From Shewanella sp. HN-41 (GTDB lineage Bacteria; Pseudomonadota; Gammaproteobacteria; Enterobacterales; Shewanellaceae): a DNA stretch of 64,000 bases. Position 1 is the stretch's first letter, and every line of letters starts with the position of its first letter. The translations under genes and the position numbers were made by a program. Below the pieces are notes generated by a model. The model was not told the origin of the DNA. It did not search any database and saw only the letters and a program-made list of their open reading frames with translations. The DNA lies in assembly GCF_000217915.1 (NCBI RefSeq), contig NZ_AFOZ01000013.1, forward strand, positions 62,001 to 126,000, written 5' to 3'. Positions 57,137 to 63,848 of this stretch are shown piece after piece.

Positions 57137-58606
57137 ATGAAATTACTGCGGTTGTTTAAAAACAGTGGAGTGGCTTTTTTAAGCTTGTTCTGCATTGCAA
57201 TATTGAGCGGATTCTCTCCTGCAGCTTGGGCTACAGCAGAAGGAACCGAACGACTTAATCTAACCGCCGCAGCCGTCGGCTATATTGCCCTATGTGTGTT
57301 TGTTATTGCTTATTTATTGGTCATGGCGGAGGAGTCACTGCACCTGCGTAAATCCAAACCTGTGTTGGTGGCGGCGGGGATTATCTGGGGCATGATAGGC
57401 TTTGTGTATGTGCAAAATGGCATGTCAGAGGTATCTGAGGCAGCCTTTAAGCACAATCTATTAGAATATGCCGAGCTATTACTCTTCCTCTTGGTGGCGA
57501 TGACGTATATCAATGCCATGGAAGAACGCAATCTATTCGATGCTATCCGCAGTTGGTTAATTGGACGTGGTTTTAGTCTAAGGACAGTGTTCTGGTTAAC
57601 AGGATTTATGGCCTTTTTCATCTCTCCCGTTGCGGATAACCTGACCACTGCACTGCTGATGTGTGCCGTCGTGATGAAAGTCGGCGCTGGGCAGCGCAAG
57701 TTTATTACCCTTGCCTGTATCAACATAGTGGTGGCGGCAAATGCGGGCGGAGCCTTCAGCCCCTTTGGTGATATCACGACTTTGATGGTGTGGCAAAAGG
57801 GCCTAGTGCACTTTGGCGATTTCTTCCATTTGTTTATTCCTGCCCTTGTGAATTTTGCGTTGCCTGCGGCCATTATGAGTGTGTTTATCCCACATTTCGT
57901 GCCTGAGCCTGAAAAAGAGCATGTTTACACTAAACATGGGGCGAAACGGATAGTGGGCTTATTCCTGCTGACAATTGCGAGTGCGGTTTGTGCCCATTCT
58001 TTCCTTGGCATGCCGCCCGTACTCGGGATGATGACAGGCTTAGGCTTCCTGCAATTCTTTGGCTTCTATCTGCGTAAAACCTTCGATCGTTCGGTTGCCC
58101 GTGAACGTGAAAAGGCCGAGTTAAGACAGGACCAATTACGTCTGCAGCAACTCGGCAGTGTGGTGCCCTTCGATGTCTTTAACCGAATTTCCCGCGCCGA
58201 GTGGGATACCCTATTATTCTTTTACGGTGTGGTGTTGTGCGTGGGTGGCCTAGGTTTTATGGGATATTTAAGCTTAGTGTCCGAGGCCATGTATTCACAC
58301 TGGGACGTTACCTATGCCAACATCGCCGTGGGCTTATTGTCATCGGTTATTGATAACATCCCCGTGATGTTTGCTGTGCTGACCATGAACCCAGATATGG
58401 CCTTAGGCCAATGGCTATTAGTGACACTGACAGCGGGAGTGGGGGGCAGTTTATTGTCGATCGGCAGTGCGGCAGGGGTGGCTTTAATGGGACAGGCGAG
58501 GGGGATTTATACCTTTGGTGCCCACTTACGTTGGGCGCCAGTGATCGCTTTGGGTTATGTTGCGAGCATTTTAGTACATATGTGGCTCAATGCGGCAATG
58601 TTCTAA
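57137..58606 (+). CDS. nhaD: Na+/H+ antiporter NhaD
   Basis: 489 aa with an N-terminal signal-like helix and about 12 membrane segments. NhaD signatures include SPVADNLTTALLMCAVVMKVG and ANAGGAFSPFGDITTLMVW (charged and polar residues in the membrane that form the ion site), plus SVIDNIPVMFAV near the C-terminus. Exports sodium in exchange for protons. Start is ATG 57137; the preceding TTG is less likely. Fits a sodium-based energetics theme with nqr. Confidence 0.93.
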   Translation: MKLLRLFKNSGVAFLSLFCIAILSGFSPAAWATAEGTERLNLTAAAVGYIALCVFVIAYLLVMAEESLHLRKSKPVLVAAGIIWGMIGFVYVQNGMSEVSEAAFKHNLLEYAELLLFLLVAMTYINAMEERNLFDAIRSWLIGRGFSLRTVFWLTGFMAFFISPVADNLTTALLMCAVVMKVGAGQRKFITLACINIVVAANAGGAFSPFGDITTLMVWQKGLVHFGDFFHLFIPALVNFALPAAIMSVFIPHFVPEPEKEHVYTKHGAKRIVGLFLLTIASAVCAHSFLGMPPVLGMMTGLGFLQFFGFYLRKTFDRSVAREREKAELRQDQLRLQQLGSVVPFDVFNRISRAEWDTLLFFYGVVLCVGGLGFMGYLSLVSEAMYSHWDVTYANIAVGLLSSVIDNIPVMFAVLTMNPDMALGQWLLVTLTAGVGGSLLSIGSAAGVALMGQARGIYTFGAHLRWAPVIALGYVASILVHMWLNAAMF

Positions 58607-58772
58607 TAATCAATGGAACACATTGTATCTGTTGTTGTTTTTAGCATTAATTGTTTTATTGATTTGTTTCGCAGATTATTCATCTAACCATGTTAGGTGG
58701 CATTAAGATCACTGCGTTGTTTTAGCTCAAATTGTATACTCGGCCTCAAGTAAAATAATGAAAGAGGCCGGG

Positions 58773-59144
58773 ATGCAAATAGGTGCTTGTTGGTTTAATG
58801 CCCCGGAACAAGTGCGATTGAATTCGGCTTCTGGACGCAGCTGGTTATTAAGTGCGGTGAATTCCCAATACTCTCTCTGGGAAGTCCCCCGTTGGGCAAA
58901 GTGGTTTCATGACGTTATCGCTATGCGCGGGATGGACAAGACTTGGTGGCGCTGATTTGCCGCAGAAAAGTCAGTCTTAGAGCCTCTTGCTATTACCTAT
59001 AAACTCAACCTAGAACAGGCCAAGTTGTAGATGGATCTATTACAGACTGAAGTGCCTAAACTCATGCACGCCGAGGTACATAAAGCCTTATTAGAGCTGT
59101 GCAGAATGAGTTTTGATATGCGATTGTCGATATGGACTCCCTAA
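58773..59144 (+). pseudogene. Decayed gene, N-terminus like the regulator at 61083
   Basis: A single frame runs 58773-59144 with two in-frame stops (TGA 58953, TAG 59028). It opens MQIGACWFNAPEQ, matching MQLGGCWFDRERG of the membrane-anchored regulator at 61083. Downstream the frame reads FAAEKSVLEPLAI and then VHKALLELCRMSFDM, which I do not recognise. The in-frame continuity on both sides of the stops suggests a recently inactivated gene. The first part is preceded by GAGG near the ATG. Confidence 0.6.
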
Positions 59145-59217
59145 ACGATCATGCCCTTATGAAGTTTTATCCCAGCGGTCATTTATGGGCCTGTAGGCGT
59201 CATTAATTTGGACAATG

Positions 59218-59245
59218 AAAAGGCATCCAACTGGATGCCTTTTTT
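59218..59245. terminator. Terminator hairpin
   Basis: AAAAGGCATCC-AACT-GGATGCCTTTTTT, usable on both strands; it closes the lipoprotein operon read from the right. Confidence 0.88.
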
Positions 59246-59279
59246 GGGAGGCGATGAGAGGGGGGGGGTTACTGTGTCA

Positions 59280-59804
59280 CTACTGTGGTGTCACTTGGAC
59301 TAATGTCAGCTCGTTATTGGCCTTAGCACCATAGATCTGAATCGCGACTTTAATTTGGGACACTGCGCCGCTTGGATCCTGTTGCTGCCAATCGAGTCCG
59401 GCCATTTCAAACTGATACTGGCCATTCTTCACTTCGGTCAAGTTACCACTGCATTCACCTTGGCTCTGGCAGCGATAGCTTTGGGTCACGTGCCAGCGTT
59501 TCCATGCCTTAGGATTGGCAGAGGCCTTATCTTTGTCAGGAAAGCCAAAGTAATAAATATCATAGCTTTTGGCGGCGGTAATAGCCGCCTGATTAGCATC
59601 GGTCAGTGAAAAGACTAAGCTGCCGGTGTTGGGATCAAACTGATCTACGGCCAGATTAATCTGGGTGGCCTCATCGACACTGACTGTGGCTTCGACTGGT
59701 GGAGGTGGCGGCGGAGGCGTCACTTCCTCGGATTTATCATCGTCGCTACCACAACCGACAAGGGCGAGTGTACCTAGGGTTAATACAAGTAATGGGTATT
59801 TCAT
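59280..59804 (-). CDS. Lipoprotein, possibly MtrC/OmcA N-terminal-domain-like, no heme sites
   Basis: 174 aa. Lipobox LVGC, lipidated C18, then an acidic patch and a Pro-rich linker (seven Pro). The mature domain (INLAVDQFDPNTGSLVFSLTD ... YDIYYFGFPD ... AWKRWHVTQSYRC ... NGQYQFEMAGLD) vaguely resembles the N-terminal beta-domain of outer-membrane decaheme cytochromes, but there is no CxxCH. AGGAGG gives ATG 59804 rather than the adjacent GTG. The upstream cytochrome stop codon touches this ribosome site, so the two are translationally coupled. Confidence 0.72.
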   Translation of the reverse strand: MKYPLLVLTLGTLALVGCGSDDDKSEEVTPPPPPPPVEATVSVDEATQINLAVDQFDPNTGSLVFSLTDANQAAITAAKSYDIYYFGFPDKDKASANPKAWKRWHVTQSYRCQSQGECSGNLTEVKNGQYQFEMAGLDWQQQDPSGAVSQIKVAIQIYGAKANNELTLVQVTPQ

Positions 59805-59814
59805 CACTGCCTCC

Positions 59815-60636
59815 TTAATTGAAGTGTCCAGTGTGGCAAGTGGTGCATTCCATATCGGTTTTAACGCTTGCCGCCGAACCTAAGGTGCCGGTACTGCCAT
59901 GGCAGGTTTGACAATCCTGGGCCTCTAGGGAAGGTTTACTACCCGGTAAGGCGCCAATATTCTCACCCTGATAGGCACGGTTTAGGAGTTCTACGAGGTA
60001 ATAAGCCATAGAGGCCGATAGACGATAGCAGCGCTCACCTTTTTGGGCAAAGGCTAGGCCAGATGCCCGCGACCAATTACTGATAGAGGAGTGACACAGC
60101 ACGCTCATGGCTTTCGATGAGCTACCGACTAGGGCTGTCTTTTCCGCAGTAGAGCCGATACCCGCGACAAACTCGGGGGTGGATAGTGGCAAGGTGGTGT
60201 TTTCATAGTAACGGAAAGTATTGGAGATGATCGCACTATTTTGACCGTTAATATCATCTAATATATTGACTAACATGCCGATGGCGTTGAGGTTGCCGCA
60301 AAGTGTGCCTTGGCCTGTGACCCCTGCAAAACCATAGCCCGCGAGGGCCGTGGGAATGGTTTTGAATTTGTCCACATCGGCACTATTAGATTGCGCTAGC
60401 ATAGTGATAACCGAATGAAACACTTGATGCATGCAGCCGCCACCTGTTTCATAGGCGAGTTTGGCTGTGGCCATTGGATCGAGTGGCACGTATTTGAGCT
60501 TTTCACCCAGTGCGAGTTGGTACTGACCATCCGCATTGGTAGCCGCAAAGGCTGAAGTTCCCATCAGGGTTGCACCTGCAGCGGCGGTGCTGATACCAAT
60601 AATACGGCTGAGTGCTTGACGTCGATTAATACTCAT
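59815..60636 (-). CDS. Tat-exported diheme cytochrome c, split-Soret-like
   Basis: 273 aa. Tat signal MSINRRQALSRIIGIS then an Ala-rich core ending SAFAA. The body has the spaced Cys pattern GGGCMHQVF, TLCGNLNA and VLCHSS, as in C_GCAxxG_C_C-type redox proteins. Two heme sites lie at the C-terminus: CQTCH 242-246 and CTTCH 264-268. This combination matches split-Soret diheme cytochromes, one of which is listed in the Shewanella cytochrome inventory. Expected periplasmic. First gene of a pair with the lipoprotein below. Confidence 0.8.
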   Translation of the reverse strand: MSINRRQALSRIIGISTAAAGATLMGTSAFAATNADGQYQLALGEKLKYVPLDPMATAKLAYETGGGCMHQVFHSVITMLAQSNSADVDKFKTIPTALAGYGFAGVTGQGTLCGNLNAIGMLVNILDDINGQNSAIISNTFRYYENTTLPLSTPEFVAGIGSTAEKTALVGSSSKAMSVLCHSSISNWSRASGLAFAQKGERCYRLSASMAYYLVELLNRAYQGENIGALPGSKPSLEAQDCQTCHGSTGTLGSAASVKTDMECTTCHTGHFN

Positions 60637-61082
60637 TTTATCTATCCTCTTTTTTGGTCATTGTTTTTATATATCAAATGGTAAAGTTGAGTTGATGGAC
60701 TCGATTTTAGGGGGAAGAGGAATAAATATTGTGATTTGAGGCGGGGGATATACTCTTGGTTGTTCGGCATCCACAAAGCGTAAATACAATCGGTTTATAG
60801 GGTTAAACGCTTTTTATATTATTCATTAACACGATTAAAATGTGACTTACCTCTTGTTATTTGTGGTATTTGTGCAGATTTATGCGCATTTATACATCAT
60901 CTCTATTTCCTTTAGTGGTATTTATTGCTGTGAGCTTAGGCTGATTTTCGCTTAATTTTAGGCGCCTAGGGGGCTCGTCACGAAATTTAACTAATTGCGT
61001 CCTTGGGTTAGCAAGATCACAGTAATCATTAGTAATCTTGCATAGACTCCCATCTGAATGTTGTCGGTTTGAGGAAAGGTAT
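60637..61082. promoter_or_regulatory. Divergent cytochrome-regulator control region
   Basis: 446 nt, AT-rich, no gene. A perfect 7-bp inverted repeat GCAAGAT / ATCTTGC (61011-61017 and 61035-61041) encloses two direct AGTAATC copies, 42-72 nt before the regulator start. TTTGTG occurs twice near 60862. Likely target of the neighbouring regulator; not proven. Confidence 0.45.
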
Positions 61083-61826
61083 ATGCAATTGGGCGGCTGC
61101 TGGTTTGACCGTGAGCGAGGCTTGCTGACCGAACAGTCCCACAACGAGTCTTGGCACCTTCCCCGTGCCGAGTTACAGGTGCTCAGTTTACTGGTGGAAC
61201 ATCAAGGAAAACTTGTTTCAAAGCATGTGCTTAAAACTGGTGACGGCGAACATCCTCCCTTGACTGATACATCATTGGCGCGGGCAGTGTTTATGATCCG
61301 CTCTTTTCTCGGCCCCCAATATGAAGGTCTGATTGAGACGGTGAAGGGGCAGGGTTATCTATTGCATAGTGCCCATGGGCGGCGGATTAAGAGTTTTCAT
61401 TACCCTAGATTGCAATCCTTGCCTTGGTGGAGTGTATTGTTAGTATTTGGATTTATGCTGGCATTCACTGTTTTCTATCTTAACCGAATTGACCACAGTG
61501 TGCCGACCGAGCCGTTAATGTCCACTGATTTGCCTTTAGCCTCGGGCCAACATGTACGCCTGCACCTCTATGCGAATTCGAAGACCAATAATACCTTACT
61601 GTTTGAACTGGGAGAGCGTCTGGGCCAAGGGATAATTGCCTGCGGTAGTAGTGATTGGTCTGAGGTTTACTCTTCTTTATCCCATGATAAACAAGTGCTT
61701 AATATTACGATGCGGGGTGACAAGCTTGGACAGTCCGTCATCCGTAATCTCAAAATTAGCGATTTAAGACGCCCTAGAGAGTTTATCGATGTGAAGTGGC
61801 TGTTGGAGGTTGGGATCTGTGGCTAA
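61083..61826 (+). CDS. Membrane-anchored winged-helix regulator (ToxR/CadC-like)
   Basis: 247 aa. Residues 1-98 are an OmpR/PhoB-type winged helix (AELQVLSLLVEHQGKLVSKHVL ... TDTSLARAVFMIRSFLG ... LIETVKGQGYLL). One transmembrane helix at about 114-134 follows, then a periplasmic domain of about 110 residues. The frame extends to 61038, but ATG 61083 has GAGGAAAGG upstream. It overlaps the next gene by 8 nt, as toxR-toxS pairs do. Divergent from the split-Soret cytochrome gene, its probable target. Confidence 0.85.
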   Translation: MQLGGCWFDRERGLLTEQSHNESWHLPRAELQVLSLLVEHQGKLVSKHVLKTGDGEHPPLTDTSLARAVFMIRSFLGPQYEGLIETVKGQGYLLHSAHGRRIKSFHYPRLQSLPWWSVLLVFGFMLAFTVFYLNRIDHSVPTEPLMSTDLPLASGQHVRLHLYANSKTNNTLLFELGERLGQGIIACGSSDWSEVYSSLSHDKQVLNITMRGDKLGQSVIRNLKISDLRRPREFIDVKWLLEVGICG

Positions 61827-62349
61827 ATGGCTAAAATGGACGATTAACTTGACTATCCTATCGGCCTTAATTGCGGCCTGTGGGGTGATCTATCTACAGT
61901 CGGCTTCCAATAAGGCGGTGATCCTCAATTGCAGTTCTGAACTGTTCGACCGCCACGGACAACTCAAGGATGACGGTAAGTTTTATCTGTTAGTGGATGT
62001 GCTTATCTCATCGGGTAATGCTCAGATTAACTATCGCTATTTTAACCTCGATGGTAGCAGTGCGGGCATGATCTTAATGCAGGGAGAAGTGCAGAGCATG
62101 GAGCCTAACAGTATGACCTATAATGTTTCGGTCAAAACCAAGACAGAATCAGAGGACCTAGATAAGAAGGCTTGGCCCGAGCATATGAAGTACCTCTCAT
62201 ATATCAGCAGTTTACACTTTAGCGAATCTGGCAAACACAATATGAGCATTGAAATACTCCACAGTGATGCCAGCAAAGATTATGCCGTCGTTTTGTTTCA
62301 GCCAAGCAATACTGTCTGCGGTTGCCGGATCGTAAATAGCCGAATTTAA
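61819..62349 (+). CDS. Membrane-anchored periplasmic partner of the regulator
   Basis: 176 aa from GTG. One N-terminal helix (residues 7-27, with a weak IAAC lipobox-like end), then a periplasmic domain with beta character (VILNCSSELFDRHGQL ... FYLLVDVLISSGNAQINYRYF). The GTG starts inside the regulator gene with GGAGG upstream, so expression is coupled. By position it could stabilise or signal to the regulator like ToxS, though no sequence match was seen. Confidence 0.7.
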   Translation: MAKWLKWTINLTILSALIAACGVIYLQSASNKAVILNCSSELFDRHGQLKDDGKFYLLVDVLISSGNAQINYRYFNLDGSSAGMILMQGEVQSMEPNSMTYNVSVKTKTESEDLDKKAWPEHMKYLSYISSLHFSESGKHNMSIEILHSDASKDYAVVLFQPSNTVCGCRIVNSRI

Positions 62350-62444: not shown

Positions 62445-63848
62445 GTGTCTAAGATACGTGTAAAGCAAGAAGAATCCCTGTCGATTAAGTTCAGCCATCA
62501 GATGGAAAAGGGGGACAATCGCCAACTAGACCTCTATTTCTTTTTGCCAAAGGAAATGGGTATAGGCTCCCATACCTTAAACGAAGAAGAATACTATTAC
62601 AGCTCAATTGTTGGGCGACGTTCCTATTATTCCGAAGGTTTACACTTGCCCTTAGTGCAAGGTCGATTTGCTAGTCTTAACCGTCGTACCGTCGAAGAGT
62701 TTAGATTGTACTTAAACTTATTTGCCTATCAGTTTGCAGTTGCGGTTGAAAACGATGTTAAGGAACTCGGTCAAATTACCGATGTAACCCACTTTTATTT
62801 CGCCCTCGATGAGCTGCGCGAGCAAATTACTCAGTTGCTGAAAAAGTTTCGCCGCAATGAGCCCGGCGATCCTAAGTGGAAGTCCTACTTCGAAAATGCC
62901 GATAACTACCTGTCATGGTTTTGTGAGCAACAATTGCTTAAAGTGCTCGCCTATGCGACGCGCAGCAGTGATTTCAATGATATCCAAGAGCGGGTGTTGA
63001 CTCTCTGTCGAAATGAGTGTGCCTATCGGGACGCTAACAATTACAACTCGACTCAAACTAAGCAAGATCCTAACCGTATTTCGAATAAGATGTTGCTGCT
63101 ACGTCGTTTGATCCAGCAAGGGGTTGTGCTGAAAGAAGAGTTAAAGCCGCTGGGGATTGGCCTTAAGAAATTTACCACGGGGTTGGCGACTGCCTTAGTG
63201 ATGCTTGTCGTCTCGGCACTGATCATCGAGGCACAGGGGGCATTCAGTGGTTTTACAATCGCACTCGTGCTGACGCTCGCGGTGATTTACGGTTTTAGGG
63301 AAATCTTTAAGGATGATGTGCGCAATGCGATGTGGCGTTTTATCCAACGTGGTCGCCCCCGTTGGAGCCGTATTTTGCGGGATACGACCAGTCAGGCTGT
63401 CATTGCGAAGCAATTAGTGTGGCTAGAATTTATGCGCCAGCAGGATTTGCCCGATAAGGTCAGTGAGATCCTCAAGCACAGGCATAGCCAAAATAAGGTC
63501 GACGCTGAGATCCTACATTATAAGATCGCCACTAAAGTGAATCAGAGTGAATTCCAGGCGGGTTATTCGACTATTCAAGAACAAGTCAATTTCAGTTTTG
63601 TGCCCTTTGCCCGCTACTTAGAGCGGGGTAAGGCAAAAATTTATAAGGAATTGGAAGGAAAAATCAGCCATGAATCCGTGGAGCGACGCTATCAAGTGAA
63701 CTTGATTTTAGTGCTACGGGATGGGCGAGAGGTTCCACAATATTTCCGCTACAAGATCACAATGAACCGCTCTGCCATCATTGAAATTACCCAGAGTCAG
63801 TTGCCTGACTCGATAAATTCGCCAACCTCTAAGGATGATGACGAGTAA
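62445..63848 (+). CDS. Unrecognised membrane protein with soluble flanks
   Basis: 467 aa, GTG start with a weak CAGG. A large N-terminal soluble region (1-235) rich in aromatic and charged residues (EEYYYSSIVGRRSYYSEG), two adjacent helices at about 243-262 and 266-285 (GLATALVMLVVSALII, then FTIALVLTLAVIYGF), then a basic C-terminal domain (RNAMWRFIQRGRPRWSRILRD) ending in Ser/Asp-rich residues. Not recognised. The 3' end overlaps the convergent GGDEF gene by 20 nt. Confidence 0.72.
   Translation: MSKIRVKQEESLSIKFSHQMEKGDNRQLDLYFFLPKEMGIGSHTLNEEEYYYSSIVGRRSYYSEGLHLPLVQGRFASLNRRTVEEFRLYLNLFAYQFAVAVENDVKELGQITDVTHFYFALDELREQITQLLKKFRRNEPGDPKWKSYFENADNYLSWFCEQQLLKVLAYATRSSDFNDIQERVLTLCRNECAYRDANNYNSTQTKQDPNRISNKMLLLRRLIQQGVVLKEELKPLGIGLKKFTTGLATALVMLVVSALIIEAQGAFSGFTIALVLTLAVIYGFREIFKDDVRNAMWRFIQRGRPRWSRILRDTTSQAVIAKQLVWLEFMRQQDLPDKVSEILKHRHSQNKVDAEILHYKIATKVNQSEFQAGYSTIQEQVNFSFVPFARYLERGKAKIYKELEGKISHESVERRYQVNLILVLRDGREVPQYFRYKITMNRSAIIEITQSQLPDSINSPTSKDDDE

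Follow-up and report, generated by a model that had tools for sequence, protein, structure and literature searches.

Co-component signalling pairs of the VtrA/VtrC and ToxR/ToxS kind combine a winged-helix regulator carrying a membrane helix with an overlapping downstream partner of lipocalin-like periplasmic fold, an anatomy set out for this superfamily in the accessible part of Kinch et al. 2022 (PMC9214523). In MtrC, according to the accessible portion of another report, domain I is a split beta-barrel lying ahead of the pentaheme domain II, and domains I and II alone retain the interaction with MtrAB (PMC12304082). A third point of comparison is the split-Soret cytochrome c (Ssc) of Desulfovibrio desulfuricans (1h21). 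Predicted relatives of all three stand together in a four-gene locus of Shewanella sp. HN-41, which lies in a window of 64,000 nucleotides, by which is meant the whole stretch analysed (contig NZ_AFOZ01000013.1, positions 62,001 to 126,000), in a genome of 4.41 Mb and 47 contigs. With a probability of roughly 0.6, the locus is read here as a self-contained, locally regulated cassette, in which a cytochrome (CYT) and a lipoprotein (LP) would form an outer-membrane electron-transfer module switched by a regulator (R) and its membrane partner (M). The cassette comprises the following features, numbered by position in the window.

59280..59807, minus strand: LP, a heme-less lipoprotein and predicted stand-alone homologue of MtrC/OmcA domain I (open reading frame, profile and predicted fold)
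59815..60636, minus strand: CYT, a Tat-type split-Soret-like diheme cytochrome c (open reading frame, NCBIfam, profile against 1h21)
60637..61082, no strand: the divergent intergenic region of 446 bp between the CYT and R open reading frames
60859..60893, plus strand: four phased direct repeats ATTTRT, starting at 60859, 60868, 60878 and 60888, a candidate R-binding element
60929..60944, plus strand: a putative degenerate CRP-like block with 3 mismatches to the CRP consensus, better formed in relatives
61006..61021, plus strand: another block, highly conserved in 16 close relatives, that contains a CRP-like half site (GGTTAGCAAGATCACA)
61083..61826, plus strand: R, a membrane-spanning winged-helix regulator of the ToxR/VtrA type (Trans_reg_C, profile)
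61819..62349, plus strand: M, a membrane partner of the VtrC/ToxS type with a predicted lipocalin-like periplasmic domain (predicted fold)

M probably starts with a GTG at 61819, which gives an 8-nt overlap with the end of R (a TTG at 61810 is the alternative), and LP starts a few bases after CYT on the minus strand. These reading frames, with their strands and overlap, agree with the initial annotation, which had described a ToxR-like regulator overlapping a membrane partner and divergent from a split-Soret-like Tat diheme cytochrome coupled to a heme-less lipoprotein. The arrangement is not a product of chance, because the four genes recur together across genomes.

Among 117 Shewanella genomes, CYT is present in 94. 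The 103 CYT matches were split at 280 bits into 88 main-group places and 15 others (12 paralogues and three fragments, one in G026 and two in G060); M matches stood for the R–M pair, and the hundred strongest LP matches were used, the weaker ones, mostly inside long open reading frames, being left out. All 88 main-group places have LP no more than 300 nt from CYT, and 87 have a divergent M within 3 kb; in the exception, G026, the CYT gene is broken into two parts on separate contigs, one part next to M and the other next to LP. A second set of 81 loci (80 named loci plus G511), overlapping the first in species, has LP adjacent in 81/81 and R–M present in 73/81; here five loci with an LP frame read from an upstream start were counted as adjacent, and one with R split in two (L164) as having the pair. 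Of the eight loci lacking R–M, six hold the three-heme paralogue and two come from Paraferrimonas. The diverged CYT paralogue of the genome set keeps LP at 12/12 places, has M within 3 kb at 0/12, and carries three CXXCH motifs at all eight places fetched. The initial annotation, which had asked for this co-occurrence check, had taken independent distribution of the genes as an argument against a common module; the genes of the two-heme form prove to be distributed together with few exceptions, whereas the diverged paralogue stands at 12 places with LP and without a partner nearby. Protein divergence is also correlated between R and LP (r 0.935), R and CYT (0.869) and R and M (0.955), values to which common ancestry contributes, phylogeny not having been removed.

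Two side observations concern these genes. The R frame is split in two in Shewanella sp. KJ10-1 (L164, 4734-5493) and a stop lies inside the R match of G099, in either case through decay or sequencing error. A three-heme split-Soret-like paralogue, accompanied by an LP of its own but not by a neighbouring regulator pair, was seen in L213, L215-L218 and L221 (also L097), its third CXXCH being C-terminal; L213 and L221 each have three such motifs, a count of 2 being an artefact of a slice that ends early.

The identification of LP as the N-terminal domain of MtrC/OmcA-type cytochromes without hemes, proposed in the initial annotation together with a structure prediction against MtrC domain I, is upheld by profile, predicted fold and motif content. 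In Foldseek the seven best rows for the LP model (pLDDT 81.3) are all MtrC 6qyc or OmcA 4lmh (E from 1.8e-5), and in the fold comparison OmcA (Z 10.9, rmsd 3.3, 128 aligned), MtrC domains I-II (10.8, 2.8, 114), MtrC (10.4, 3.0, 122) and UndA (9.5, 3.7, 126) stand above a next row at 6.9, the matched MtrC residues being the N-terminal 45-181. A profile of 44 LP sequences against all PDB sequences places MtrC 6r2q (1.3e-4), MtrF 3pmq (3e-4), OmcA 4lmh (2.1e-3) and UndA 3ucp (0.043) first; the lipobox region contributes part of this score, and the fold match is independent of that region. The Pfam family MtrC-MtrF_N (PF22111) matches 14 of the 44 sequences at E 0.1 or better. The predicted lipobox cysteine is Cys18 (numbered from the ATG at 59804), and the lipobox pattern fits LP in 73/81 loci. 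A Trp-His motif (W104-H105) is invariant in the 44 sequences and kept in 74 of the 81, the seven lacking it being six from Ferrimonas and one from Shewanella in which the Cys pair is still visible by eye. Since none of the 81 homologues has a CXXCH motif, LP is not an MtrC-type cytochrome; on the predicted fold it is a domain I homologue without hemes. It thus resembles domain I of MtrC, OmcA and UndA in predicted fold, lipobox and a Cys pair (Cys112/Cys118) that aligns with that of MtrC 6r2q, and differs from these proteins in having no heme domain, the heme protein being a separate, unrelated polypeptide. Antibody-like rows below MtrC in the fold searches were taken as generic beta-sandwich matches. 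Single-sequence searches with LP gave weak or low-complexity matches only, and their PDB match, a proline stretch, was rejected.

CYT matches the NCBIfam split-Soret cytochrome c family NF047622 with E 3.6e-31, at a score of 108.6 bits that lies below the equivalog cut-off of 400 bits, and a profile of 32 CYT sequences has 1h21 as its sole PDB match at E 0.01 or better (E 9.3e-30). By sequence comparison it is therefore a homologue of Ssc and not the Desulfovibrio equivalog. The likeness covers about 220 residues with two C-terminal CXXCH motifs, both of which, together with Cys68, Cys113, Cys181 and Cys203, align with cysteines of 1h21. Both CXXCH motifs, Cys68, Cys181, Cys203, His182 and His271 are invariant across the 32 sequences and Cys113 nearly so, which makes His182 and His271 candidate distal heme ligands. 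All 81 CYT loci have an RR stretch near the N-terminus and two or more CXXCH motifs (two in 75, three in 6), in keeping with the Tat-type diheme cytochrome first proposed. Apart from its score, CYT differs from Ssc of D. desulfuricans in being coupled to an MtrC-like lipoprotein and the R–M pair. Its counterpart in S. oneidensis is presumably SO0939, and SO_0938, SO_0940 and SO_0941 are the further locus labels in that organism; no mention of SO0938, SO0940 or SO0941 was found in the open-licence full-text literature. In the accessible part of one study SO0939 is named a split-soret diheme cytochrome c and is a predicted Tat substrate, predicted to be extracellular (PMC3623810), and in that of another it is placed under outer membrane or extracellular (PMC4837345).

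For the regulator pair, the ToxR-like identity and overlapping membrane partner given in the initial annotation also stand. R contains a Trans_reg_C domain (Pfam, E 9.8e-8), and in the PDB its profile ranks the ToxR DNA-binding domain first (7nmb, annotated as cholera toxin transcriptional activator; E 3.3e-11). A hydrophobic segment, read by eye in the alignment as a membrane helix, is followed on its C-terminal side by Cys187 and Cys246, invariant in 30 sequences. Pfam yields no match for M at E 1, and the NCBIfam rows are weak and look like chance; the M model (pLDDT 87.1) matches VtrC with Z 11.6 (rmsd 3.0, 122 aligned), 11.4 and 10.8 and ToxS with Z 9.3 (rmsd 3.7, 125 aligned) and 8.9, the next row being 7.8. 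In Foldseek alone VtrC again ranks first (E 9.9e-4), followed by nitrophorins (1.4e-3); the nitrophorin rows, standing between VtrC rows, were read as the common lipocalin fold, and no heme binding is claimed for M. Cys38 and Cys169 of M are invariant in 41 sequences, and the C-terminal half of R retains two or more cysteines in 72/73 loci, as does M in 73/73. R and M are thus predicted to be a co-component signalling pair of the VtrA/VtrC–ToxR/ToxS kind, sharing with these systems a winged-helix regulator with a membrane helix, the overlap and, by prediction, the partner fold. They differ from them in lying opposite a cytochrome–lipoprotein operon instead of virulence genes and in the conserved Cys pairs of both partners. 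In the accessible text of PMC9214523 the words Shewanella and cytochrome do not occur.

The regulation, signal, electron transfer and location that we infer would run as follows. M and the periplasmic part of R may sense an envelope cue, which could be a small hydrophobic or redox-active ligand in the M barrel or the state of the conserved Cys pairs. R would then bind the repeat array from the membrane and switch the cyt-lp operon, and probably its own operon too, with a CRP-type input in some relatives. CYT would be exported by Tat and gain two c hemes outside, the Tat route suggesting an iron centre assembled in the cytoplasm. LP, anchored in the outer membrane, may hold CYT as domain I holds the MtrC heme domain, so that LP and CYT would constitute a two-polypeptide electron-transfer unit at the outer membrane, facing either the periplasm or outward.

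The proposed binding site is the most informative part of the CYT–R region, which contains several conserved blocks across 16 close relatives. The window array consists of four ATTTRT units about 10 bases apart, and four units occurred in 0/300 shuffles. The strict unit fails in distant loci. On the R strand, 19 of 40 regions contain chains of the looser unit ATTHRY (at least three units, 9-11 apart), against 0/40 on the other strand and 9/2000 shuffles, and a repeat consensus (ATTTRTNNNATTYATGTNAATT) fits 25/40 regions at two mismatches or fewer against 3/800 shuffles. The exact consensus has 33 matches in the 117 genomes, against none for the reversed control. Of these, 32 fall on the R strand of the CYT–R interval, 15 of them in genomes that had no part in deriving the consensus, all being relatives, and the sole match outside the cassette is in G097. 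In the window genome the three-unit array pattern has an exact match at the cassette and a one-mismatch match at a single further place, the control giving 0. The simplest reading is that the array is a binding site private to the cassette, to which R probably binds. CRP-type palindromes, scored against the CRP consensus, are enriched, occurring in 15 of the 40 regions at one mismatch or fewer (34/2000 shuffles) and in 39 at two or fewer (398/2000). As two-mismatch sites are at chance level over the whole window, CRP control of the window copy is only suggested. Scans for sigma-70 promoters and terminators gave nothing better than shuffles.

A different role for the cytochrome and lipoprotein would be that of input to the switch, with CYT signalling to R–M either the redox state of the envelope or the presence of a ligand such as NO or a sulfur or nitrogen species, and with the main targets of R lying elsewhere. 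Sensor-like and regulator genes kept together in 14 gene contexts would suit such a role, as would the two looser-pattern site matches outside the cassette in the window genome. No constant fifth gene was seen by eye in one locus from each of the 14 contexts, a weak negative since longest-frame picks hid cassette genes in L143 and L154, and this too would be in its favour. However, only one of the 33 exact matches lies outside the cassette, so that no wide regulon with the exact element is visible, and we hold this role to be improbable, if the best placed of the alternatives.

The second alternative is that CYT is a stress or detoxification protein (acting on NO, nitrite, peroxide or metal) with LP as anchor only and no respiratory electron path. 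A scan of 368 other genomes of the class found no CYT at E 1e-10, and a sample of 295 genomes of the order contained it in 17 Shewanella and in one genome from another genus of the family (G511), where the cassette is complete. The whole cassette is also present in named Ferrimonas loci and one Paraferrimonas locus (among the best 80 of 103), so CYT is not confined to one genus. One record, L142, titled Marinobacter nauticus DP3N21-5, is probably mislabelled, its cassette and flanks being Ferrimonas-like and, along long stretches, 72-86% identical in DNA to loci of F. balearica. An MtrC-type N-terminal domain occurs in 94/94 CYT-bearing Shewanella genomes versus 14/23 without CYT. This link, which may be inherited, and the specific kinship of LP with MtrC/OmcA domain I both speak against detoxification, which we regard as unlikely and rank behind the input role.

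A bolder form of the electron-transfer interpretation sees LP–CYT as a surface-exposed two-piece MtrC, with a free domain I docking a split-Soret diheme and iron-centre protein, possibly onto an Mtr-type porin conduit, and M sensing a redox-active small molecule (flavin, quinone or heme), which would tie extracellular electron transfer to a ToxRS-type switch. So specific a picture is doubtful and would be a long shot.

Genomic context addresses whether the cassette holds together for its own sake. The 72 named two-heme loci with R–M fall into 14 gene contexts, as grouped by single linkage over roughly 4-5 kb of flanking sequence. Thirty are at the commonest site, having at least one of fba, DUF481, nhaD and NEXT, and the other 42 are elsewhere, in 13 further contexts without a common flanking homologue; in G058 the cassette is elsewhere and a second regulator pair occupies the usual site. 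A search of four loci for tRNA genes found none. That two unrelated divergent operons have stayed neighbours by chance would fit the 30 loci at one site and is very hard to credit for the 42 in 13 further contexts with all four genes present, or beside the correlated R and LP distances (r 0.935, phylogeny not removed). Joint retention in 14 contexts and a cis element nearly confined to the cassette are in line with the self-contained module first proposed.

The preferred interpretation, an electron-transfer cassette switched by its own regulator pair, must be weighed against several observations that count against it. In the accessible part of PMC3623810, an SO0939 deletion mutant was made and is absent from the named growth-rate-defect mutants; any role would therefore be conditional or minor. 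The association of CYT with MtrC could reflect common descent and not function, and among the nine genomes that lack MtrC one has a completeness of just 52%. R–M is kept where LP–CYT is absent (G029, G036), and LP–CYT occurs without R–M in the paralogues and two Paraferrimonas loci. As a single sequence LP scores 19.6 bits against PF22111, below the gathering threshold of 27.7. As for the cis element, the consensus is post hoc, because it and the looser unit replaced ATTTRT after the failure in distant loci, and it was drawn partly from the same loci. It is lacking at three mismatches or fewer in 13/40 regions (mostly divergent clades and G511), it fits the divergent window copy only with 3 mismatches, and 56/88 main-group cassettes, the window's included, have no exact match. 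Over the window genome, its scan at two mismatches or fewer has no power, because it gave a single match outside the cassette (C2:176469) against 4 for the reversed control. More generally, because the loci are related, the counts, the shuffles and the distance correlations cannot be treated as independent tests.

The surroundings of the cassette include two further features.

58574..59278, plus strand: R2-M2, a decayed, much shortened remnant of a second regulator-partner pair (DNA identity to G015)
62445-63848: NEXT, an uncharacterised conserved 467-aa open reading frame downstream of M

On the LP side lies nhaD (NCBIfam NF038006, E 2.1e-213), preceded by frames labelled DUF481 and fba. NEXT has no match at E 1 or better in Pfam or NCBIfam, and it stays at the usual site even where the cassette is elsewhere or absent. 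The R2-M2 remnant shows 88.8% identity to G015 over 338 nt and 76% over 377 nt. The pair is intact and convergent with LP in relatives, for example Shewanella sp. ANA-3 (L195, 7425-8733), and M-like partners are found on this side in 28/88 places, one of them (G073) oppositely oriented. In L085, L086, L087, L088 and L100 an R2-type regulator lies near fba and NEXT with no LP–CYT there, M2 being seen in all except L088; R2-M2 is therefore probably a separate system. Regulator-partner pairs also occur just upstream of NEXT in L073 (8138-9122), L090 (5527-6562), L092 (5274-6309) and L094 (5323-6358), with a regulator frame of 163-180 aa apparently lacking a DNA-binding domain, and in L090, L092 and L094 a further R-like frame of 172-206 aa precedes this pair.

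Every part of the cassette belongs to a known kind, and their combination was not found in the literature, as far as open-licence full text extends. The cytochrome SO0939 appears in cytochrome and Tat-substrate lists, with no function stated in their accessible parts (PMC3623810, PMC4837345). If the interpretation is right, a co-component switch of the ToxRS/VtrAC type, which the literature consulted describes mainly in virulence control, would govern an envelope electron-transfer operon. The predicted existence of MtrC domain I as a free protein would bear on the purpose of that domain, and in this model electroactive genus the locus supplies a regulator together with a candidate for its private site.

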